Position numbers and translations under genes: made by a program
Notes under the pieces: model-generated
The model's input: only the letters and a program-made list of their open reading frames with translations
Database searches by the model: none
What the model was told of the DNA's origin: nothing
NCBI GenBank assembly: GCA_017507525.1
Contig: JAFWAT010000020.1
Location: forward strand, 1-48,254
DNA length: 48,254 nt
Direction of reading: 5' to 3'
Source of the DNA: Clostridia bacterium
GTDB lineage: Bacteria; Bacillota; Clostridia; UBA1381; UBA9506
Shown: one piece after another, positions 650 to 24,291 of the stretch
Numbering within the stretch: position 1 is the first letter of the stretch
Layout: each line of letters starts with the position of its first letter

Positions 650-1726
650 TTAGTTGTTCTTTTCAAATTCCTTCATGAAAGCAACCAGTTTCTCGACACC
701 TTCAACCGGCATTGCATTATAAATGCTTGCACGCATACCGCCTACGGTGCGGTGACCCTTTAAGTTCACAAAGCCTGCTGCCTTTGCTTCTTTAATAAAT
801 TTCGCATTTAATTCATCAGAATCTGTTACAAAGGGAACGTTCATCAAAGAACGGTCCTTGGCAACAACTGTGCCACGGAACATGTTAGATTCGTCTAAAT
901 AGTCATATAAAATCTTAGCCTTTTTCAGGTTGATTTCATACATTGCTTGGATACCGCCCAGCTCTTTGAGCCACTCGAGCACCAGCTTGCAGATATAAAT
1001 ACCGTAGGTCGGCGGGGTGTTATACATAGAGCCGTTATCCACATGAATCTGGTAATCAAACATAGTGGGTGTGCCCTCTTTTGTAAAGCCCAAAAGGTCT
1101 TCACGAATGATAACCACAGTAACACCGGCGGGACCCATGTTTTTCTGTGCGCCGGCATATAACATACCGAACTTGGATACATCAATAGGCTGAGACAGAA
1201 TATTGGAAGAAATATCTGCTACTAAGGGAACATCACCTGTATCCGGCAGGCTGGTATAACGTGTGCCGTAAATTGTGTTATTAAAGGTGATGTGGAAATA
1301 GTCTGCATCCTTTGTAAAGGTAGCAGGGTCTAATTCGGGAATATAGGAAAAGGTTTTATCTGCCGAACTTGCAACACGGTTCACCGTGCCATATTTCTCT
1401 GCTTCCTGTGCAGCCTTTTTAGACCACTGACCGGTGATGACATAGTCAGCCTTACCGGTTCTCATCAGGTTCAGAGGAATCATGGCAAATTGACTAGAGG
1501 CACCACCCTGCAGAAACAGAACCTTATAGTTGTCAGGAATCTGCATCAGCTCACGAAGAAGGGATTCTGCACCGCCGATAATTGCTTCATAATCTGCTGA
1601 ACGGTGACTCATCTCCATAACGGACATGCCGCTTCCTTCGTAGTTTAACATTTGCTCTGCTGCCTTTTCCAGAACGGCTTCCGGTAACATGGAAGGACCG
1701 GCTGAAAAATTGTACACTCTACCCAT
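650..1726 (-). CDS. serC: Phosphoserine aminotransferase
   Basis: PLP enzyme that transaminates 3-phosphohydroxypyruvate to O-phosphoserine, using glutamate. The 358-residue product has normal family length. It opens MGRVYNFSAGPSMLPEAVL, the classical SerC start (NFxAGPxxLP), and carries the PLP-lysine region YAGAQKNMGPAGV at about residue 190 and a C-terminal HRTVGGMRASIYNA segment that is strongly conserved. An in-frame ATG at 1741 is rejected as start because it lies inside the Shine-Dalgarno GGAGG (1735-1739); the ATG at 1726 sits 8 nt after it. serA follows immediately. A consensus promoter lies about 110 nt upstream, leaving a structured leader. Confidence 0.95.
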   Translation of the reverse strand: MGRVYNFSAGPSMLPEAVLEKAAEQMLNYEGSGMSVMEMSHRSADYEAIIGGAESLLRELMQIPDNYKVLFLQGGASSQFAMIPLNLMRTGKADYVITGQWSKKAAQEAEKYGTVNRVASSADKTFSYIPELDPATFTKDADYFHITFNNTIYGTRYTSLPDTGDVPLVADISSNILSQPIDVSKFGMLYAGAQKNMGPAGVTVVIIREDLLGFTKEGTPTMFDYQIHVDNGSMYNTPPTYGIYICKLVLEWLKELGGIQAMYEINLKKAKILYDYLDESNMFRGTVVAKDRSLMNVPFVTDSDELNAKFIKEAKAAGFVNLKGHRTVGGMRASIYNAMPVEGVEKLVAFMKEFEKNN

Positions 1727-12501: not shown

Positions 12502-13611
12502 CTAATTAATCTTTACCGTTTCCCATAAAGCATTAATGTAATCTAAGGTTTCAGGCTTCAAATTTCTGTATGCATTTTCGTTATACTGTGTGGTAAAGTC
12601 CTCAACCTTTCCATACAGAACGTTCATAGCCTCTTCACCCATTTCTTCCTGATAGCCTGCATTTTCATAAACTACCTTATTGGGCGATGCATAGTAGGTG
12701 TACTGGGCGTTAGCAATTGCTGCGTCTTCTGAGAGCATAAAATTAATAAAGCTTTCAGCCAGCGCCTGATTTTGACAGCAAGTAGGAATACACATGGCAT
12801 CTACATAATAGTTGGTTCTTTCAGGGTAATAGAACTGAAGATCAACACCCTCTGCCTGAGCATCCTTCATGGTGAAATAATCCCCGGCATAATAAGCTCC
12901 GATTGCCGCCTCTCCAGATTCCATCATGTTATAAATTTCATCCATTACAAAGCTATATACAAAGGGACGCTGCTTGAGCAGTTCTTCATAAGCCGTATCC
13001 CAAACGGTTGTTTCCTCGGAATTGACATCCAGCCCCAGCTTATACATTGCCATACCAAAGGCATCACGGGAATTGTTAAACTGCAGAATTTTATCTGCAT
13101 ATTTTTCATTCCATAAAAGATCCCAGCTTCCGGTGTCGGCTTCTTCTACTTCGTTTGCGTTATAAATAACACCGATAATCCCGTAAGCATAGGGTACGGT
13201 ATACTTAGCTTCCGGGTCATAGTAAAGACCTTTGAAGCTATCATCAATATTTTGATAATTGGGAATATTCTCATAGTTTAAGGGCAGGAGCATATTCTCC
13301 TCTGCCATTCTGGCAATCATGTAGTCAGAAGGAATCACAACATCATAGCTGACTGCACCGGAGGAAAGCTTGCTGTACATGTCCTCATTAGAAGCAAAGG
13401 TTGTGTAGTTAACCTTAACCTTCTGCCCATAGGTTTCCTGATACCACTTTTCAAATTCGTTCACGGTATCATAACTGCCCTCGCTGCCGTCGGAGATGTA
13501 TTCCCCCCAATTATATACGTTTAAAACAAGTGTGTCAGAATTTCCACAGCCGGAAAGGCACAGGGCCGATGCCATCAGGATAGCCAAGAATAGTGCTAAA
13601 GCTTTTTTCAT
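12502..13611 (-). CDS. potD: Spermidine/putrescine ABC transporter substrate-binding lipoprotein
   Basis: Extracytoplasmic polyamine receptor, 369 residues. The N-terminus MKKALALFLAILMASALCLSGC is a lipoprotein signal with the lipobox cysteine at residue 22. The mature part begins with LNVYNWGEYI, the typical PotD start, and continues with YDVVIPSDYMIARM and AVIGAYYAGDY-like ligand-pocket segments (AAIGAYYAGDY near 238). It is the last gene of potABCD and its start overlaps the potC stop by 4 nt. The preferred ligand (spermidine or putrescine) cannot be told by eye. Confidence 0.95.
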   Translation of the reverse strand: MKKALALFLAILMASALCLSGCGNSDTLVLNVYNWGEYISDGSEGSYDTVNEFEKWYQETYGQKVKVNYTTFASNEDMYSKLSSGAVSYDVVIPSDYMIARMAEENMLLPLNYENIPNYQNIDDSFKGLYYDPEAKYTVPYAYGIIGVIYNANEVEEADTGSWDLLWNEKYADKILQFNNSRDAFGMAMYKLGLDVNSEETTVWDTAYEELLKQRPFVYSFVMDEIYNMMESGEAAIGAYYAGDYFTMKDAQAEGVDLQFYYPERTNYYVDAMCIPTCCQNQALAESFINFMLSEDAAIANAQYTYYASPNKVVYENAGYQEEMGEEAMNVLYGKVEDFTTQYNENAYRNLKPETLDYINALWETVKIN

Positions 13612-14453
13612 GATTGTTCGCTCCTTTTCAATCTTATTTTTCTTTGTTTTTTAAGTTCGCGCCACCGTTTGTCTTCTCCGCTCTCAACAAAATTATTGAG
13701 TAACAAAAGTGTCAGGGTGACAAAGAAAATAATGGTTGCCAAAGCATACATTTTGGGCGTTACCGTTTTTTTCGTCATGCCGTAAATACGAATCGGCAAG
13801 GTTTGAAAATCATTGCCGGAGGTAAAATAACTGATAACAAAATCATCAAGTGACAAGGTAAACGCCATAATCGCACCGGTAATAATGCCCGGCAAAATTT
13901 CCGGCATCGTTACCTTTAGAAAAGCTCTAAACGGCGTGCAACCCAAATCCATTGCCGCTTCCGTCAGGTCCCGTTCCATTTGCTGCAGCTTTGGCAGCAC
14001 CTGGAAAATAACATAAGGCAGGCAAAAGGTGACGTGGGCAATGAGCATTGTCCAAAAATTCAAGCTGGTAGATGCCCCGAAAAGCCGACCCACGAATACA
14101 AACACCAGCATCATGGAAATACCGGTGATGATGTCCGGATTAATCATGGGAATGTTGGTCACCGTGTTCACCGCCATACGATACCAGCGGTTTTTCAGCT
14201 TGTGTATTCCCACTGCCGCCGCGGTGCCCATCACTGTGGAAATCACCGTGGCTGCCACAGCCAAAATCAGTGTATTCTTAACGGATTCCAAGGTATTTTC
14301 ATCATGAAACAGCTCTTGATACCATTTAAGTGAAAAGCCCGAAAAAACCGAAAGACTTTTTGCCTCATTAAAGGAAAAAACCAAAAGCACTAAAATGGGA
14401 GCAAACAGAAAAATAAAAATAAGCGCTGTATAAAGCTTTGATGTTATTTTCAA
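13608..14453 (-). CDS. potC: Spermidine/putrescine ABC transporter permease PotC
   Basis: One of two inner-membrane permeases of the polyamine importer, about 281 residues with six predicted helices. The EAA loop for contact with the ATPase is visible as LTEAAMDLGCTPFRAFLKV near residue 165. The start is uncertain. A GGGGGTGA Shine-Dalgarno-like stretch at 14466-14459 precedes a TTG at 14453 with 5-nt spacing, giving MKITSKLYTALIF. Upstream in-frame alternatives are GTG 14462, ATG 14468 and TTG 14474, all overlapping the potB end. Translational coupling to potB is likely. Confidence 0.93.
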   Translation of the reverse strand: MKITSKLYTALIFIFLFAPILVLLVFSFNEAKSLSVFSGFSLKWYQELFHDENTLESVKNTLILAVAATVISTVMGTAAAVGIHKLKNRWYRMAVNTVTNIPMINPDIITGISMMLVFVFVGRLFGASTSLNFWTMLIAHVTFCLPYVIFQVLPKLQQMERDLTEAAMDLGCTPFRAFLKVTMPEILPGIITGAIMAFTLSLDDFVISYFTSGNDFQTLPIRIYGMTKKTVTPKMYALATIIFFVTLTLLLLNNFVESGEDKRWRELKKQRKIRLKRSEQS

Positions 14454-14454
14454 T

Positions 14455-15345
14455 TTACTCACCCCCATACACAAGCCGCGCCGTCAGGTATTTCACCAAA
14501 GCCATGCACGCAAGTAAAATGACCATTAAAATAAAGGCTATGGCTGCTGCAAAATGCAAGTTGTTGGCTATGTACTGCCCTTCAATGGCGTCACCAATTA
14601 AGAAAAACTTGCCGTTACCCAATTTCTGCGAAATATAAAAGGTGCTGATAGACGGAATGAGTACCATGGTAATGCCGGATATAACCCCCGGCAAGCTCAA
14701 GGGGAAAATCACCCGTTTGAACACCGAAACGCTGTTACAGCCCAAATCCCTTGCAGCTTCTAATAGCTTACCGTCCATCTTGGCTAAAATGGAATAAATC
14801 GGCAGAATCATATAGGGAAAATAGTCATAAACCATGCCGATAACAACCGCCGTTTCTGTTCCGATAATGTGAATTTTATCAATGCCAACAAGGCCTAAAA
14901 GCCCATTTAAAATACCAGTGTCTTGCAGAATGGTCATCCAGGCATAGGTACGAATTAAAAAGTTCATCCACATAGGAATCATAATCAGCGTTACCAGTGT
15001 TTTCTGCGTTCTCACTTTTGCCCGTGCCATGATATATGCCATGGGATATCCCATTAAAAGACAAACCAGCGTTGAAATGGCTGCAAGCTTTAAAGAGCGC
15101 ATAAAAATAACAAGATATGTGCGCACCTCGCCGATTGTACCATCATCAGCTTTGAGTTCACTGGTTGCCGTAAAAAAGCGAGTTATGTTTTCTGTTGTAA
15201 ATGCAAAATTATCATCTGTAAAAGCATAATACGCCACAAAAATCAGGGGCACCAAAATAAACAAGAGCGACCAGGCAGAGTAAGGTGCCAAGGCAAGACT
15301 CATGCCGCCCCGTTTTTTTGTTTTGACTGAGGTTTGCATGGTCAC
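14455..15345 (-). CDS. potB: Spermidine/putrescine ABC transporter permease PotB
   Basis: Partner permease of PotC, 296 residues with six predicted helices. The EAA loop is [19 protein letters not shown] near residue 200. An extended periplasmic segment after the first helix is usual for PotB. A GTG at 15345 overlaps the potA stop (GTGA), and an ATG at 15339 is an alternative; both lie downstream of GGGAGGTGAGG. Gene order potA-potB-potC-potD with 4-nt overlaps indicates a single translationally coupled transcript. Confidence 0.94.
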
Positions 15346-16454
15346 GCCTCACCTCCCGGGTCAGAGAGCTCATCGAGTTCATTGGAATAGGAGGAATAGT
15401 CACCAAACATACCGGAGTATTTTGATTTTTTCATAATATGAATGGCATCAGGGTCTAAAGAGATGCCGATGCGGTCATCAACACTGGCTGAATCCGTTGT
15501 CTGAATCATCCATTTAAAACCGCCGATATCCACAATAATTTCGTTGTGAACACCCATGAAGGTTACTGCTGTTACCACACCCTGCAGCATTGCATTCTCT
15601 AAAGGCACAATGTCAACATCCTCAGGCCGAACCACAACATCCACCTGCTCACCCTGTGCAAAACCTGCATCTAAGCACTGGAAGGTATGGCCCGAAAAGC
15701 TGACCCTATAATTTTCAAGCATGACACCATCAATGATATTGCTCTCGCCAATAAAATCTGCTACAAAGGCATTTTGAGGCTCATTGTAAATATCCGTCGG
15801 GGTACCAATTTGCTGAATCTTGCCCTCGCTCATAACCACAATGGTGTCAGACATGCTGAGTGCCTCTTCCTGGTCATGGGTAACAAAAACGAAGGTAATC
15901 CCCGTGGTTTTTTGAATTTTTTTCAGTTCCTGCTGCATGTCCTTTCTGAGCTTTAAATCAAGCGCACCCAAAGGCTCATCTAAAAGCAACACCTTGGGGT
16001 GATTAATCAGCGCTCTTGCAATGGCAACACGCTGCTGCTGACCACCGGAAAGACTGGTCACACTGCGCTCTGCAAAATTAGAAAGCATAACAAGTGACAG
16101 CATCTTTTCCACCTTTTCGCGAATTTCTTTTTTGGGAACCTTGCGCTCCCGCAGGGGAAAAGCCACATTTTCAAAGACATTCAGATGCGGAAACAGGGCA
16201 TACTTCTGGAATACCGTGTTCACGTTCCGCTTGTGAGGCGGTACATCGTTGATTTTTTCATTCATAAACAGAATATCGCCACAATCCGGATGTTCAAAGC
16301 CGCCAATCATGCGGAGCATGGTAGTCTTACCGCAACCTGAAGGACCTAATAGCGTAATAAATTCATTATCATAAATATCTAAACTGATATCGTCTAAAAT
16401 CAGTTCTCCGCCAAAGGCTTTAGAGATATTTTTCAGTTCAATCACTTTTTTCAT
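15342..16454 (-). CDS. potA: Spermidine/putrescine ABC transporter ATPase PotA
   Basis: Cytoplasmic ATPase of the polyamine importer, 370 residues. Walker A is GPSGCGKTT near residue 37, the signature motif [15 protein letters not shown] near 134, Walker [13 protein letters not shown] near 155, and the switch histidine is in [10 protein letters not shown] near 190. The C-terminal third is the TOBE-type regulatory domain (VVRPEDVDI). The frame is open for 26 further codons upstream, but AAGGAG at 16467-16462 lies 7 nt before the ATG at 16454, fixing that start. Transcription should begin some 380 nt upstream, at a consensus promoter, so the gene has a very long structured leader. Confidence 0.96.
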
Positions 16455-16836
16455 GGTCCTTCTCCTTACACAAGCATTAAAAAAGGGTATGCCGCCATGT
16501 AGCAACATACCACTTGTAAGAAACAAAGTCATGAAAACTCCTGCACGCAGGAAACATTATCACGTTGTCTTATCCCAATGGGTTTAGAGTCTATATAGCA
16601 AAGATTACTTTTACCACTCTTATTGACCATTTCACAAGTTATATGCCACATGGCATTGGTTTATAGTCACCAACTTATAAAACTTGAGCTTTTAACTCAA
16701 TCAATAAGGCAACAGAAGTTGCCAACCGCACAAGCGGTTTTCGGCATTTGACCCGGCTGTCCGTATGGCCTTAGCCGACAAAAACATCGGCGGTCAGTTT
16801 ATCTTGCTTCGGAAAACTCTTTTCCGATTGAGATGT
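16455..16836 (-). ncRNA. Long, highly folded potA leader (candidate structured RNA or riboswitch)
   Basis: About 380 nt with no gene between a consensus promoter and potA. Read on the minus strand it holds nested helices. CGGAAAA/TTTTCCG (16826-16810). A multibranch domain closed by TGACC/GGTCA (16796-16792 with 16753-16749) contains the hairpin GCCGA/TCGGC. AACCGC/GCGGTT is closed by TGCC/GGCA (16746-16720). Hairpin GGCAAC/GTTGCC (16723-16708) shares its first arm with the preceding stem. A second multibranch domain is closed by TTATTGA/TCAATAA (16707-16701 with 16626-16620). Then come AGAGT/ACTCT and CCTGC/GCAGG, and a 10-bp hairpin (16511-16486) whose outer stem overlaps the potA ribosome binding site. 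It matches no RNA family that I can recall with confidence; part could be a known family such as raiA. Confidence 0.6.
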
Positions 16837-16841
16837 GACAA

Positions 16842-16870
16842 ATTATAGCACATTTTTTGTGTTTTGTCAA
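16842..16870 (-). promoter_or_regulatory. Consensus sigma-A promoter of the potA leader
   Basis: On the minus strand TTGACA (16870-16865), 17-bp spacer, TATAAT (16847-16842). It starts only 7 bp after the MFS gene stop. Predicted start of transcription is near 16835. Confidence 0.8.
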
Positions 16871-18626: not shown

Positions 18627-19886
18627 TTATTTAACAAAATTTTTCTTAGCTTTTTTCATAGCTAAGATACGATTCATTTCGTTATAAACTATCATATACC
18701 CTTCATCAACACCCATGCCCGGTTTTGCAAGAATCTGAACAGGCTGGGTCGCCATTGCACAATGCACACATACCTGGGCACTACGGTCAGTTTCATTACA
18801 TGTACCGCCCTGATAAGCGCCAATTCCTTTTTCTTTGCAATATAACACTGCCTCAATAGTATTATTAATGCCTCCAAGGTCAGGAGTCTTGATCTGCACC
18901 ATGTGACCTGCTTTATGATCGGCAAAAAGCTTTATATCTTCAAGTGTGTTACACCATTCATCTGCAACAAGCTCTACATCGCAATTTCTGTCATCAAGCT
19001 CTTTGGTAAGGGCAGCCAAAGCCGTCATCTGTGTCTCTCGGTCACAATCACAGTCCATAGGACCCTCAATGCGGATTTTGAAAGGTTTTGCAATTTCTCC
19101 TATTTCCTCTATGTAATCTGCCATTGCCTTATAGTTGTTGTTTCCAAAGGCAGCGCCTATTGTTCCATACACATCTATGTGCATAACCGGAGAATAATCT
19201 TCACTTGAACGGAAATTCAAAATACGCTCCCGCAGCCAAGCTACATATTCTTTAAGCTTTTCGCCGTTTCTGCCAAGCTTTGTGTCAACGTTATTAATAA
19301 GAGCATGCGGAAGAACCTGTGCTCCTTTTAGAATCATCTTATCCGAATTGTCATAGCGGTCATCACCTGACTGCGTGAAAATCGGAATGGGTGTTTCTGA
19401 TACAGTACATCCGTACTCATCAGCTACAACCTCACACATCATTCTGCCTGTTGCCTTTGCAACTGCGTCAAGTATTGCCTGCGATACGCCATAACGAATA
19501 GCTGTATGAAGACGTTTACCGTCTACACAAATAGCTTCCATCATCGCACATAAATCACGGAAATTGTCAGCTTCTTTTCCAACCAGTTCAGGCTTTATAT
19601 ATGTATCAATAACAGGTATAAAATCTGCTGCAAGGAATAGCGGGTCACGACCACCTGCGCCTGAATATTGAACAGCGGCACAGTCGCCAAACGCAATCTG
19701 TCCATCTTCCAATACGATCATAACAGAGATAGACTCACCTGCCTGACGAACAGAACGAAAACCCTCGGTTACAGGGTCACCTGTATAAAACACGCCATCA
19801 TGACCTGCACCCTGCTTAATGGCACGTTGGTCATCAAAGTAAAAGCCTGTGCGACCCGGTGAACAAACAACATCTATAATTTTCAT
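18627..19886 (-). CDS. mal: Methylaspartate ammonia-lyase
   Basis: Enolase-superfamily enzyme that eliminates ammonia from (2S,3S)-3-methylaspartate to give mesaconate, the second step of the methylaspartate pathway. The 419-residue product is close to the 413 residues of the C. tetanomorphum enzyme. Visible are MHIDVYGTIGAAF (metal ligand Asp), RIEGPMDCD (Glu), ELVADEWCN (Asp) and the catalytic-lysine context MVQIKTPDLGGINNT. A longer in-frame extension to 19961 is rejected because AAAGGAG at 19895-19901 serves the ATG at 19886. It is the last gene of glmS-glmL-glmE-mal. Confidence 0.96.
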   Translation of the reverse strand: MKIIDVVCSPGRTGFYFDDQRAIKQGAGHDGVFYTGDPVTEGFRSVRQAGESISVMIVLEDGQIAFGDCAAVQYSGAGGRDPLFLAADFIPVIDTYIKPELVGKEADNFRDLCAMMEAICVDGKRLHTAIRYGVSQAILDAVAKATGRMMCEVVADEYGCTVSETPIPIFTQSGDDRYDNSDKMILKGAQVLPHALINNVDTKLGRNGEKLKEYVAWLRERILNFRSSEDYSPVMHIDVYGTIGAAFGNNNYKAMADYIEEIGEIAKPFKIRIEGPMDCDCDRETQMTALAALTKELDDRNCDVELVADEWCNTLEDIKLFADHKAGHMVQIKTPDLGGINNTIEAVLYCKEKGIGAYQGGTCNETDRSAQVCVHCAMATQPVQILAKPGMGVDEGYMIVYNEMNRILAMKKAKKNFVK

Positions 19887-19905
19887 AATAAAGTTCTCCT
19901 TTATA

Positions 19906-21357
19906 TTAATATTTTGGACGACCAACCAAACGGCCTTTACCGATAGCGTATACATCATCAATTACCATCTGGAAAGAGGCCTTACGATTTTCGGCAGCTG
20001 CACGCTTGTCGATTTTTTCTCTGTGGAAATCGATAAGCTCCTGACTAAACGGAAGATTACCAGTATCTAAGATGCGAACAGCACCATCATTATCACGGCA
20101 CGGCAACATCTTACCCGCGTTTGCACGGCAAGGAGCAAACGGAACATCTAAAACACCCGCCTCAACACCACGGCAAACACCAACAGCTATATCTCCATTT
20201 CCAAGCTCAAAGCATTTATCAACAATAGCACGGGTTTCCTGACGGATTATCTCCTTTTCCTGCTCTAACGAATCTGACTGGAAGGTCTGATCAGCAAGCA
20301 TGTTAACCACCTGTTTTGTGCAACGAAGCCCCTGAGCATTTGCTTCCATTGTAGGAATACCAACCGCCTCATGAGGGGTTTTTACAATGACCTTTGTCGC
20401 CTTTGACAAAGCTGCAATGAGGCTACCTGAAGAAATAACACCAAATGCCTTTGCCTCGTCAGCAGGGAAACCGCCCATCCACTGATGGAGAACGGTCGTA
20501 ACATCAACATCGGAGTATCCGTACTCTTTTAAGTAGTCATCGGTTAATTCCTGTAATGTGCGGATCGCTGCAATATCCTGCACAAGATTTCCGCACTGAC
20601 CGTAGCCGACAGTTATGTTTTTAACACCCTGTTCAGCTGCAAGCAATGCTTCAATGATTGCTGCCGCATGAGAAATACAAGGCGGAACCAATGTACCCGT
20701 CAAAGGTCCGTATGGTTCACGATTGATAGAAACACCCATTTCTTCATAGATGCCTGTCAAACGGTCAACATACTGCCAGTCGCAAATGGTTCTCTCCATA
20801 GGGATATTTTTGCAATACGGAAGATTATATGAAATACCGCCGCCCTCATAGCTTGTAAAACCGCCGGCATATGTAATTTCAGTCAAAAGTCTTGCATCCG
20901 GCGTGCCATGACGAACCTGCATCGGAACATTAACGCTCTCAATAACCTGACGGCATTTTGCTACACCGTGGTTAACTGCAGGAAAGCCGTTTAGCATAGC
21001 TCTTTCCAAACGCAATGATTCCGAAATACCATTTTCTGCCTCTTCGTAGCGATTTTGTCTTGTATAACTGTCTATCGTTGACGGCAACAGGTCAGCTTCT
21101 CCGTGTTCTTCAAGATACTGCATAAGCTTTATATGCTCTTCCACAACAGGAACACCTGCACGTGGTTGTACTAATGTACGATTATCACGTTTTGCGTCTA
21201 AAAGCTTTTTAGAAAATTTTCTTGACTCAGGCATAGCTTTATGATAGGCAACAGCCTCTTCAAGGTCGACTTCTTTTCCGGTGGGCCATTGCATCAAAAC
21301 TTCCTGTCTAAGACGGTTAAATTCTTCGTCAGAAATACGTTTATTTCGAATATCCAT
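19906..21357 (-). CDS. glmE: Glutamate mutase epsilon (catalytic) subunit
   Basis: Adenosylcobalamin-dependent carbon-skeleton mutase subunit; with GlmS it interconverts L-glutamate and (2S,3S)-3-methylaspartate. Length 483 residues is the family norm. The TIM-barrel substrate-binding segments include [12 protein letters not shown] near residue 145, [19 protein letters not shown] near 170, and an [14 protein letters not shown] stretch. The ATG at 21357 has AAAGGAG upstream within the 3' end of glmL, so the genes overlap by 17 nt. B12 binding lies mainly in the partner GlmS. Confidence 0.97.
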
Positions 21358-22732
21358 GGTATTTAAGCTCCTTTTTCATAATTCGTAAGGCTGTTTTAGG
21401 ATGATATGAAGATAAAAGCCCCATCGCAGCCAAAATGTATGTTTTGTCTACCCACACATCTGCACTTTTAGGTTTTAGCGATGCTGGGTTTATTTGTGAG
21501 TAAAGGGCATGGGAGGCTATCTCTTCTGTCCTTTTTGTATGTATAAGGCTACCGCCTGTAACCACAATTTGTTTTACTTTTGTCAGGTTTTTTCCTTCCT
21601 GCACAAAGGTCTGGCCCATCATTGTATACGTTTCCGATATGGTTCCTGCATGACGGGTAACCGCTTCATCAATAGCACACGAAGCCAATGCAAAATCAAG
21701 TGCCTCTAACTCTTCATCGCCGTTTGGAAGCTTGTCGGTATTACGTTTTAACTCCTCTATCAGAGTCAGTGCCTTTTCTGTGGAAAGGCCCGAAAGCCGG
21801 CATATACGCTCTATCCCCTGCGCATCTACAATACCCTGCACACTATATCGCATGCCAATATCCCCTTCCACCGTTCGCTTTGCGTAAGGTTCCGGAAGGC
21901 CTTTGAATACAGTGTTCATGTGTTCAGGCATGCCGTCGGCAATGGAATAAACATCAGTTGTTGCACCGCCCACATCAACTGCAATCAGTTCCCCGATTCC
22001 TATCTCGTCTTCATGCCCGTTTGCAAGCAGTTCCATGGCTTGAAGCACAGCAGATGGTGTAGGCATCATTATATCAGAAAGAAGATTTGTTACTTTACTT
22101 AATCCTTTAGCCTGTATAATGCGATTTAAAAATATCTCTCTTATCTTTTTTTGTGTAGGCTCTATCTGCAGAGTACCGAATTTAGGCATAACATTGGGAC
22201 AAGTATAGACTTCACAATCCTTTAAAATTCTCTCACACGCACTTGCACAAGTACGGTTTCCTGCCAATACAATCGGAAATTTTGGGTTCATCTTCGAGAG
22301 CATTTTTGCATTATGAATGATACAATCAGTGTTTCCGCCGTCTGTTCCCCCAACCAACAAAAATATGTCAGGATTGATTTTACCGATTTCCTCTATATCA
22401 TGTTCGGTTAATTCAAACGCATAAACACCTACGGTTTTAGCGCCCGCTCCAAGGCTGGCAAGTTTTGCAGCCTCCCCGGTAAGTTCAGGAACAAGTCCGC
22501 TTGTTACCATTCGCAAGCCACCGGCAGCAGAAGAGCAAGCATAACAGGCGTCATATTTAATCTTTCCGGTTTTTTGCTCTAAAAGTTTAAGTCCCTCATT
22601 GAGACCATCATTTATATCAGTCTGAACAGTTGTATATGCTGCAGCGGTTGCAAGGATTTCTTCCTTTCCTATATCTACAGCAGTAAGCTTTGTATATGTA
22701 CTGCCAAAATCAATCAGCAAAACCTTGCTCAT
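21341..22732 (-). CDS. glmL: Glutamate mutase-associated ATPase MutL/GlmL
   Basis: 463-residue ASKHA-fold (actin/Hsp70-like) protein invariably encoded between the S and E subunits of glutamate mutase. Its exact role is not settled; a chaperone or reactivase that exchanges damaged cobalamin is the usual proposal. The N-terminus [16 protein letters not shown] is the phosphate-1 loop, [15 protein letters not shown] near residue 255 is the phosphate-2 loop, and [11 protein letters not shown] near 390 is the adenosine motif. The start overlaps the glmS stop by 4 nt and the stop overlaps glmE, so all three are coupled. Confidence 0.95.
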
Positions 22733-23163
22733 TGATTGCCACCTTCCGTATCCAAAAGCTCATGAAGTGCTTCAATGGTAGTTTCAGGTGTTGTTCCGGG
22801 CGGAAACGCACGGTCAAATCCCATTGCTTTAAAACGTTTTTCAACATCTTCAAATTTTTGTTTACCAATAACAATATTGCCTCCAACCAGCAAAGGAATT
22901 CCTTTAAGACCGGCCTCATCACACTTTTCACGCATACCCCGGCAATCAAGCTCACCCTGTCCATAAAGGGAAGATATGACAATAGCATCTGCACCGGATT
23001 CAATGGCAGCCGCAATATATTCTTCCTGAGAAACCATAACACCAAGATTGACTACTTCAAAACCGGCTTCTGTAAAAGCATGGTACAAAATTTTATTGCC
23101 AACAGCATGAACATCGGCGCCAATAACACCAATGACCAATACTTTTTTCTCCTTATTATTCAT
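22729..23163 (-). CDS. glmS: Glutamate mutase sigma (cobalamin-binding) subunit
   Basis: 144-residue B12-binding subunit. The base-off, His-on motif DxHxxG is visible as GADVHAVG at about residues 15-22, with the usual [10 protein letters not shown] (about 65) and [12 protein letters not shown] (about 92-103) segments that cradle the nucleotide tail. It leads the operon. The start ATG at 23163 follows CGAGG. A sigma-A promoter and a near-palindromic operator lie in the 100 bp upstream. There is no cobalamin riboswitch. Confidence 0.97.
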
Positions 23164-23202
23164 TTCAATACCTCGTAATATTATTTCATAGACGCAACTA
23201 TG

Positions 23203-23228
23203 ATTGTTATATATCTATATAATACAAT
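23203..23228. promoter_or_regulatory. Candidate GntR operator at the glmS promoter
   Basis: A near-palindrome whose ends are ATTGTTATATA and TATAATACAAT. It shares ATTGTTATATA with the gntR operator and overlaps the glmS -10, which suits a repressor. Confidence 0.5.
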
Positions 23229-23247
23229 GTGATATATCACTTGTCAA
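23219..23247 (-). promoter_or_regulatory. Sigma-A promoter of glmS-glmL-glmE-mal
   Basis: On the minus strand TTGACA (23247-23242), 17-bp spacer, TATTAT (23224-23219). The spacer contains the perfect palindrome GTGATATATCAC (23229-23240), a further possible operator. Confidence 0.65.
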
Positions 23248-23273
23248 GAAAAAATGACTATTTTAAATAATTT

Positions 23274-24251
23274 TTATATGGTTTTTTTATCACGAATTCT
23301 TTTGATTTTGGTTTCGAGATACAAAACAGACCCTTCATCCATCTCATAATTACAGTCTATTATATTGCCTTTAAATCCAAGTATATGCTTTAGCGTTTGG
23401 GCATCAAAGTATTTTTCGTAACTTTTAGGAACAAGAATTGAATCTTTGTCACCAAGATACTTTTGTATATTCCCATCAGCACTTATAATGAACGGTTTAC
23501 TTAAATCCATTTCTTCAGCATATATTTTGCACGTATCATATATAAGCTCTGCAAAACGCTCGCTGTACCCTACTATACCAACCCTTTCAGCCGGACGAAT
23601 TTTAAAGATAGAGGTAAGGCACCCGATAGAAATCCTCAGCGCGACTCTAACCACCGCTTTCTGTCCCGGCACAATACTTTCCAAATACTGAGCATGACGC
23701 GATGTCGTAACAATAAGATCAAAATCCTCCCCTAATTTATAAGGGTATTGTTTTACACTGTCGAGGGTATAGGAATATAAATCAACGCCGTGAATATGCC
23801 GAAGTTGTTCAGACATCTGTGACAGATTTTCAGGATTACATTCAACGACCGCAACCTTTACAGTTGCTTCCTTCTGAGAATATTCACGAAGCTTAAGGTC
23901 TAAAAATATGTTTATTTCAGGAGCCGATAAGCCCATACCTTCCAATCTTTCAAGCATTTCATCTATCGCCGCCATTGCCTGTTCTTTTCTGCTTCCTGAA
24001 TTTGCAGGCTGATATTTTACAAAAGTCCCTCTTCCCTGCACCTTTTCTATAAACCCAATGCGTTCTAATTCATCATACGCTCTTTTGACAGTGCCTCTTG
24101 CAATGCCAACTTCTTCTGTCATTTCACAAACAGTCGGAAGCTGTTGACCGGACGAAAGCTCACCGGTTTTTATTGCAGTGCAAATAGCATCCACAAGCTG
24201 CTGATATATAGGGATATCCAGTTCCATATTAACTTTATAAATAGACTTCAT
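23274..24251 (-). CDS. GntR-family transcriptional regulator of the methylaspartate cluster
   Basis: 325-residue regulator. The N-terminal winged helix-turn-helix (about 8-80) has the GntR pattern: IPIYQQLVDAICTAIKTGEL, then QLPTVCEMTEEVGIARGTVKRAYDELE and IEKVQGRGTFV. The C-terminal 230 residues form an effector domain I cannot place in a named class; it contains VAVVECNPENL and VGIVGYSERF. The start is the ATG at 24251 after AGGAG (24259-24263 region); an upstream frame to 24284 lies in the operator. It sits between the glm and citrate-lyase-type operons on the same strand, and a 28-bp palindrome overlaps its own -10, so autoregulation is likely. Confidence 0.88.
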   Translation of the reverse strand: MKSIYKVNMELDIPIYQQLVDAICTAIKTGELSSGQQLPTVCEMTEEVGIARGTVKRAYDELERIGFIEKVQGRGTFVKYQPANSGSRKEQAMAAIDEMLERLEGMGLSAPEINIFLDLKLREYSQKEATVKVAVVECNPENLSQMSEQLRHIHGVDLYSYTLDSVKQYPYKLGEDFDLIVTTSRHAQYLESIVPGQKAVVRVALRISIGCLTSIFKIRPAERVGIVGYSERFAELIYDTCKIYAEEMDLSKPFIISADGNIQKYLGDKDSILVPKSYEKYFDAQTLKHILGFKGNIIDCNYEMDEGSVLYLETKIKRIRDKKTI

Positions 24252-24263
24252 AGATTTCTCTCC

Positions 24264-24291
24264 TATATAATTGTTATATAACAATTATATA
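24264..24291. promoter_or_regulatory. Perfect 28-bp palindromic operator of gntR
   Basis: The 28 bases are their own reverse complement, centred on 24277/24278, with core TTGTTATATAACAA. The site covers the -10 of the gntR promoter, so occupancy should block RNA polymerase. Cores of the site recur at 18257, 23203 and 28395. Confidence 0.75.

Follow-up and report, generated by a model that had tools for sequence, protein, structure and literature searches.

The leader of the potABCD operon in a Clostridia bacterium contains a large conserved RNA, which probably acts in cis as a polyamine-responsive transcription attenuator and is most probably a riboswitch. We base this reading on a conserved fold, compensatory base changes, consistent association with polyamine genes, and alternative pairing between a terminator and an antiterminator. 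An earlier reading of the letters alone (the sequence-only reading) had proposed a riboswitch controlling polyamine uptake, and the same four lines of evidence support that proposal, with the ligand being putative. Positions refer to the window, that is, the whole 48,254-nt stretch of contig JAFWAT010000020.1 that was analysed, and all features of the leader and its operon lie on the minus strand.

A folded leader between a consensus promoter and potA

A sigma-A promoter (TTGACA-N17-TATAAT, with TG before the −10 box; 16842–16870) matches the consensus hexamers at 12/12 positions and begins, at 16870, 7 bp downstream of the stop codon of an MFS gene (16877), as the sequence-only reading had stated. 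From its position, transcription should start near 16835, and about 380 nt separate the promoter from the potA ATG at 16454 (the sequence-only reading had drawn the potA boundary at 16455). Just before potA, an intrinsic terminator hairpin (16486–16511; −14.6 kcal/mol) is followed by a U tract (16485–16480). The structured leader RNA thus delimited by promoter and terminator would be about 356 nt long (16480–16835). An in-frame start further upstream (ATG at 16532, potA frame) would add 26 codons to PotA and overlap the terminator; it is probably unused, and the good Shine-Dalgarno sequence AAGGAG belongs to the ATG at 16454.

The predicted minimum free energy of the leader is −120.5 kcal/mol, compared with −87.6 ± 4.5 kcal/mol for shuffled sequences (z = −7.3; 0/100 shuffles as low), which bears out the earlier impression of an unusually folded leader; single-sequence folding by itself was not relied upon as evidence of structure. 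Both helices named at the outset are present, TGACC/GGTCA at 16796–16792/16749–16753 and TTATTGA/TCAATAA at 16707–16701/16620–16626. The earlier description of promoter, fold and helices therefore holds, but it had overlooked the terminator at 16511–16486.

Downstream, the operon encodes the spermidine/putrescine ABC transporter ATPase PotA (15342–16454; NF043075, 550.7 bits at a cut-off of 550), the permeases PotB (14455–15345; best match NF007044 PotB, under the equivalog cut-off) and PotC (13608–14474; best matches spermidine/putrescine permeases including NF007047 PotC, under the cut-off), and the substrate-binding protein PotD (12502–13611; best match NF007048 PotD, under the cut-off). 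Elsewhere in the window, at 18627–24284, the protein sequences alone suggest a cluster of glutamate mutase-like and methylaspartate ammonia-lyase-like genes (mesaconate pathway), with a regulator gene of the GntR type at its far end.

Architecture of the conserved RNA

Not counting the terminator, conservation extends over about 230 nt. In the window, the domain at 16580–16820 gives a full-length match of 207 bits to our covariance model R1, whose alignment contains the window sequence itself. The predicted fold surrounds it with an outermost closing helix, which would pair AUCUCAAU (16827–16834) with AUUGGGAU (16579–16572); the close relatives L020 and L101 carry AUUGAGAU at the position of the 5′ strand. 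Inside it, the long-range helix P2, which is supported by compensatory changes, encloses the conserved RNA by pairing GCAAGAU (16801–16807) with AUCUUUGC (16598–16604).

The 5′ domain (16741–16796) corresponds to Rfam family RF02440 and consists of P3 (UGACC/GGUCA) and the variable hairpin P4. It is followed by a lineage-specific hairpin (AACCGC/GCGGUU; 16724–16740), found in the window's genus and a few others and missing from most homologues, and by the P5 hairpin (GGCAAC/GUUGCC; 16708–16723). P6 joins UUAUUGA (16701–16707) to UCAAUAA (16620–16626) around the P7 hairpin (UUGAG/CUCAA; 16684–16700) and a three-way junction with hairpins P9 and P10 (16636–16676), which is closed by P8 (AAGUU at 16676–16672 with AACUU at 16640–16636). 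Compensatory changes are seen in both P5 and P7.

The 3′ core, AACUUGUGAAAUGGUCAAUAAGAGUGGUAAAAGU...UUUGCUAUAUAGACUCU (16586–16640), is kept even in minimal homologues. It contains P11 (AGAGU/ACUCU; 16620–16616/16590–16586), which crosses P2, and the two helices probably make a pseudoknot if both form at once. Base 16620 serves both P6 and, as its first base, P11, and these uses compete. Variation in P11 comes mainly from Brachyspira and Synergistota (UGAGC/GCUCA). In three divergent congeners of the window's genus (L136, L137, L138), CGACC/GGGUCG replaces UGACC/GGGUCA, a compensatory change; at the site of the P11 loop these loci carry another 3′ segment, GAGUACGUGUACGACUC, and potA still follows.

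Compensatory base changes support the fold

We scored the 54 proposed pairs of helices P2 to P11 in a MAFFT alignment of 47 sequences that was built without reference to structure. Compensatory double changes occurred in 34/54 pairs, compared with 16.6 ± 2.1 in shuffles (0/500 as high), and 89.4% of cells were paired in this alignment, a value that fell to 33–44% when the partners were slid. The two helices named by the sequence-only reading proved to be conserved across homologues, with 98.7% of cells paired in P3 (UGACC/GGUCA) and 99.3% in P6 (UUAUUGA/UCAAUAA). Each of them shows a compensatory change in one pair only, because their sequence hardly varies.

When the 54 proposed pairs were tested against a tree-based null, with correction for that number, E < 0.05 was reached by every one of the five P4 pairs, by two P5 pairs and by one P2 pair. 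This stronger result depends on restricting the test to proposed pairs; over all column pairs, where power is low, only the P4 pair 51–81 reached E < 0.2. An R1-fitted alignment of 98 distinct rows, which leans towards the model, contained 344 doubly changed cells versus 77 ± 9 expected, and RNAalifold recovered P3, P4, P5 and P6 unaided. Taken as comparative evidence, these changes indicate that the leader is a conserved structured RNA with compensatory base changes, as would be expected of a riboswitch.

A catalogued small RNA covers one peripheral domain

An Rfam 15 scan of the whole window returned a single match, RF02440 (SpF59_sRNA, "ldcC RNA"), at 16796–16741. It scored 71 bits against a gathering threshold of 37.2 bits and spanned model positions 1–54 of 54, that is, 56 nt of the leader. 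The sequence-only reading had named such a match as the mark of an already described RNA. A significant match was indeed found, but it covers one peripheral 56-nt domain only. Although the family is catalogued as a streptococcal sRNA, the RNA described here does not behave as a stand-alone streptococcal small RNA, because it forms part of a leader of about 230 nt that lies directly before polyamine genes in Bacillota, Brachyspira and Synergistota. The 54-nt model covers only P3 and P4 of this RNA; its pneumococcal member also precedes a polyamine gene. The portion catalogued previously is thus the 54-letter RF02440 piece only, and the full element appears to be new. We found no description of it in the literature searched; subscription papers and preprints, which were outside the scope of that search, could describe it.

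The raiA motif RNA is a large conserved RNA of Bacillota and in this respect resembles the element studied here. The suggestion that part of the leader belongs to it fails: the Rfam 15 scan gave no hit to raiA, not even with E relaxed to 10, and no raiA gene lies nearby. SAM-I and T-box were likewise unmatched in the Rfam scans, at gathering thresholds and at E up to 10, as were lysine or any other Rfam riboswitches at E up to 10; hits to Lacto-phage-1, RnaG and miRNA families were attributed to chance. PyrR-type and T-box attenuation leaders also rely on an intrinsic terminator that forms conditionally within a structured 5′ leader but control other genes, and the window RNA has no Rfam sequence match to them.

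That RNA can sense polyamines is not new as such, contrary to what the sequence-only reading had supposed. A spermidine riboswitch, a rare SAM-I variant with a four-stem aptamer and 13 examples, has been published (Salvail et al. 2023, PMC10853860); it controls ldcC, speE and speB and was shown by experiment to be an OFF switch, and its authors expect further classes (PMC10853860). It likewise controls polyamine genes through a terminator/antiterminator platform. Unlike that SAM-I-type aptamer, the window RNA has a different architecture, with neither a SAM-I-like aptamer nor its four-stem junction (no SAM-I clan match at E up to 10), and it is far more widespread.

The RNA precedes polyamine genes in several phyla

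A 24-nt exact sequence from the domain, used as a search pattern, matched at least 120 genome contigs. Among the matches listed are Paenibacillus, Bacillus, Neobacillus, Cohnella, many Clostridia and Lactococcus, as well as Brachyspira, another spirochaete MAG and Synergistaceae, placing the RNA in Bacillota, Spirochaetota (Brachyspira) and Synergistota. Every genome tested carried one copy. The full R1 model was present in 25/398 sampled genomes of the window's phylum, RF02440 was matched in 8/10 genomes of its genus, and a viral contig collection contained no exact copy of the motif.

The loci were selected by sequence pattern and not by gene. In all 127 pattern-found loci with a recognised gene, the first downstream gene was a polyamine gene: carboxynorspermidine synthase in 65, speD in 44, potA in 14 and an Arg/Lys decarboxylase in 4. 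Outside this tally stood five regions too short to judge and two unassigned loci, L034, whose downstream region ends after 451 nt, and Lactococcus L119, whose first gene was identified as potA by NCBIfam. With the latter, a polyamine gene lies directly downstream and co-oriented in 128/128 scorable loci from at least three phyla. Family names were checked on representatives (the window's PotA, one carboxynorspermidine synthase, one SpeD and one decarboxylase), some of which, including the carboxynorspermidine synthase, are best matches below the curated cut-off. As far as these annotations show, the genes whose 5′ leaders contain the RNA are functionally related, as would be expected for a riboswitch. 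At one locus, L114 (motif at 1357–1572, minus strand), the RNA precedes a small gene resembling the nitrogen regulator P-II, with an ABC gene similar to potA next in line, which is an unusual combination.

Inspected individually, new distant R1 matches scoring as low as 33.6 bits also stood before speD or a decarboxylase gene, and some of them have no RF02440 domain. Three homologues (L165, L169 and L170) do without this domain; in L169 and L170 most of the middle is missing too, but AACUUGUGAA...AAUAAGAGUAGUAAAAGU...UUUGCUAUAUAGACUCU is retained, with speD or a decarboxylase gene downstream. Since these homologues dispense with the RF02440 piece and retain the 3′ core, the former would be peripheral and the latter the heart of the RNA. 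In L169 (1501–1736) and L170 (1501–1698), this minimal RNA is reduced to P2 and the 3′ core, followed by a terminator and speD, and promoter-like sequences (TTGACT...TACAAT / TAAAAT) stand directly before it.

In the window's genus, speD (AdoMet decarboxylase) was absent from 10/10 genomes in which the controls were detected, and a search without a positive control did not find carboxynorspermidine synthase in the window's genome. For these reasons import is plausibly the polyamine source that is regulated in this genus. The genome has one gene of the Orn/Lys/Arg decarboxylase family elsewhere, and the organism may therefore make a diamine.

A terminator and a predicted antiterminator would compete for the same strands

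Terminators were detected automatically in 96/109 loci. The window's own escaped the scan because of an extra C before its U tract and was taken from a separate terminator search of the window. The core strand NNCUUG, which supplies the 3′ side of P8, complements the terminator 5′ arm (CAAG), and in 74/101 loci it is the best partner for that arm in the entire RNA. The first variable core position co-varies with the arm in many lineages: a C there goes with a matching arm G in 13/15 loci, and a U (Brachyspira, Synergistaceae and Clostridia) with an arm A in 7/8 (2 × 2 table 13, 1, 1, 7; Fisher p ≈ 4 × 10−4, with relatedness ignored). In the core-C lineages the corresponding pair of P8 is lost (P8 217–283 is paired in only 73%) and that of the antiterminator is kept, so NNCUUG follows the terminator rather than its partner strand in P8. 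At the second variable position (X2 with Y2), 77/94 loci matched versus a permutation mean of 74.4 (65/2000 permutations at least as high), a weak signal because most loci have A-U there. Core–arm duplex energies showed only a moderate excess over dinucleotide shuffles (median z −1.6).

In the window, CAUAUAACUUGU (16645–16634), which overlaps the 3′ strand of P8, can pair with ACAAGUGGUAUG (16517–16506), which overlaps the terminator 5′ arm, in 11/12 positions. Enforcing this antiterminator gives a fold 6.5 kcal/mol above the minimum. Because the pairing uses both the P8 strand and the terminator arm, P8 with the terminator on one side and the antiterminator on the other are predicted to be mutually exclusive, as the two states of an expression platform should be.

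About eight rumen Clostridia loci (L009, L018, L023, L037, L047, L070, L099 and L117) carry the RNA before speD with no terminator detected. They have a CCAUC/GAUGG hairpin over the Shine-Dalgarno sequence, in some cases with CAAGUU just before it, and may use a translational platform.

Proposed mechanism and alternative explanations

At high internal polyamine concentration, the polyamine, most likely spermidine, would bind the folded core and stabilise P8. With P8 stable, NNCUUG would be held in the core, leaving the terminator arm free, and the hairpin would form and stop transcription before potA. When polyamines are scarce, P8 would open and NNCUUG would pair with the CAAG of the arm (CAUAUAACUUGU with ACAAGUGGUAUG); the terminator could then not form, and potABCD would be made. 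We infer this OFF polarity from the alternative pairings and the roles of the genes. The genes under its putative control cover import as well as SAM-dependent synthesis (speD) and SAM-independent synthesis (carboxynorspermidine synthase), and since these share only their polyamine product, a polyamine is favoured over SAM, dcSAM or MTA. Spermidine or a close relative is the most likely putative ligand; norspermidine, carboxylated intermediates and putrescine are possible.

A cis-acting attenuator could also have a protein sensor (or a translation factor) whose binding to the RNA depends on polyamines, much as PyrR acts on pyrimidine operons. Such a sensor would fit the anatomy (helices, terminator, pairing and genes) equally well, and the conserved single-stranded blocks GGCCAUACGGACAGCC and GGUCAAUAAGAG could form its site. 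The absence of a regulator gene beside the element, in the operons examined for chosen polyamine signatures, speaks weakly against it, and the size and complexity of the fold would be typical of large aptamers; we regard a protein sensor as unlikely.

The ligand might instead be a precursor or by-product (SAM, dcSAM, MTA, lysine, arginine or agmatine), as the presence of speD and the Arg/Lys decarboxylase among the regulated genes could suggest, and known SAM-I variants precede ldcC (PMC10853860). However, the RNA controls potABCD in genomes without speD and also the SAM-independent carboxynorspermidine synthase, and SAM-I, lysine and other Rfam riboswitches were unmatched at E up to 10, which makes such a ligand distinctly improbable.

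The annotation in S. pneumoniae as an sRNA or ncRNA (PMC3395615, PMC6212727, PMC12323649) might suggest a trans-acting RNA whose position upstream of polyamine genes is incidental, and a terminated product of about 350 nt could act in trans as well. Yet neither a directly upstream, co-oriented position in 128/128 scorable loci of at least three phyla nor a terminator arm that co-varies with the core would be expected of a trans-acting RNA, and we consider this very improbable. Finally, although any single-sequence fold can look elaborate, an ordinary leader with a chance fold and no regulatory role is scarcely credible given z = −7.3, the compensatory changes and the conservation across phyla.

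Implications for pneumococcus and for polyamine sensing

The polyamine-responsive attenuator reading may extend to a pneumococcal RNA. In S. pneumoniae, F59 sits between SP0915 and SP0916 (PMC3395615), and SP_0916 encodes arginine decarboxylase (PMC7531197). Transcripts reported there include SN20, which is 318 nt long and upstream of SP_0916 (PMC2887815), srn235 of about 327 nt (PMC12323649), and srf-13 of 328 nt, annotated as "ncRNA of unknown function" (PMC6212727). We identified srf-13 as F59 by coordinates and literature references. These transcripts of 318–328 nt would be terminated leaders. Transposon insertions in the pneumococcal RNA gave a relative fitness of 0.05 in mouse lung (PMC3395615). 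If this RNA is the speA leader, the strong lung fitness defect probably arises in cis, by way of arginine decarboxylase, and a pneumococcal "sRNA of unknown function" would become the leader of the arginine decarboxylase operon.

RNAs that sense polyamines selectively are hard to find because polyamines bind RNA generally, and the one established class is rare, with 13 examples (PMC10853860). The candidate described here is common, large, tied to genes of both synthesis and import, and equipped with a clear expression platform. On balance we favour the view that it represents a new structural class of spermidine (polyamine) riboswitch, one that is widespread, has an unusually large aptamer (about 230 nt) in which a pseudoknot probably joins P2 to the P11 loop, and also exists in a minimal form without the 5′ domain. 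In many Bacillota and some spirochaetes and synergistetes, it would be the chief RNA-based control on polyamine synthesis and uptake.
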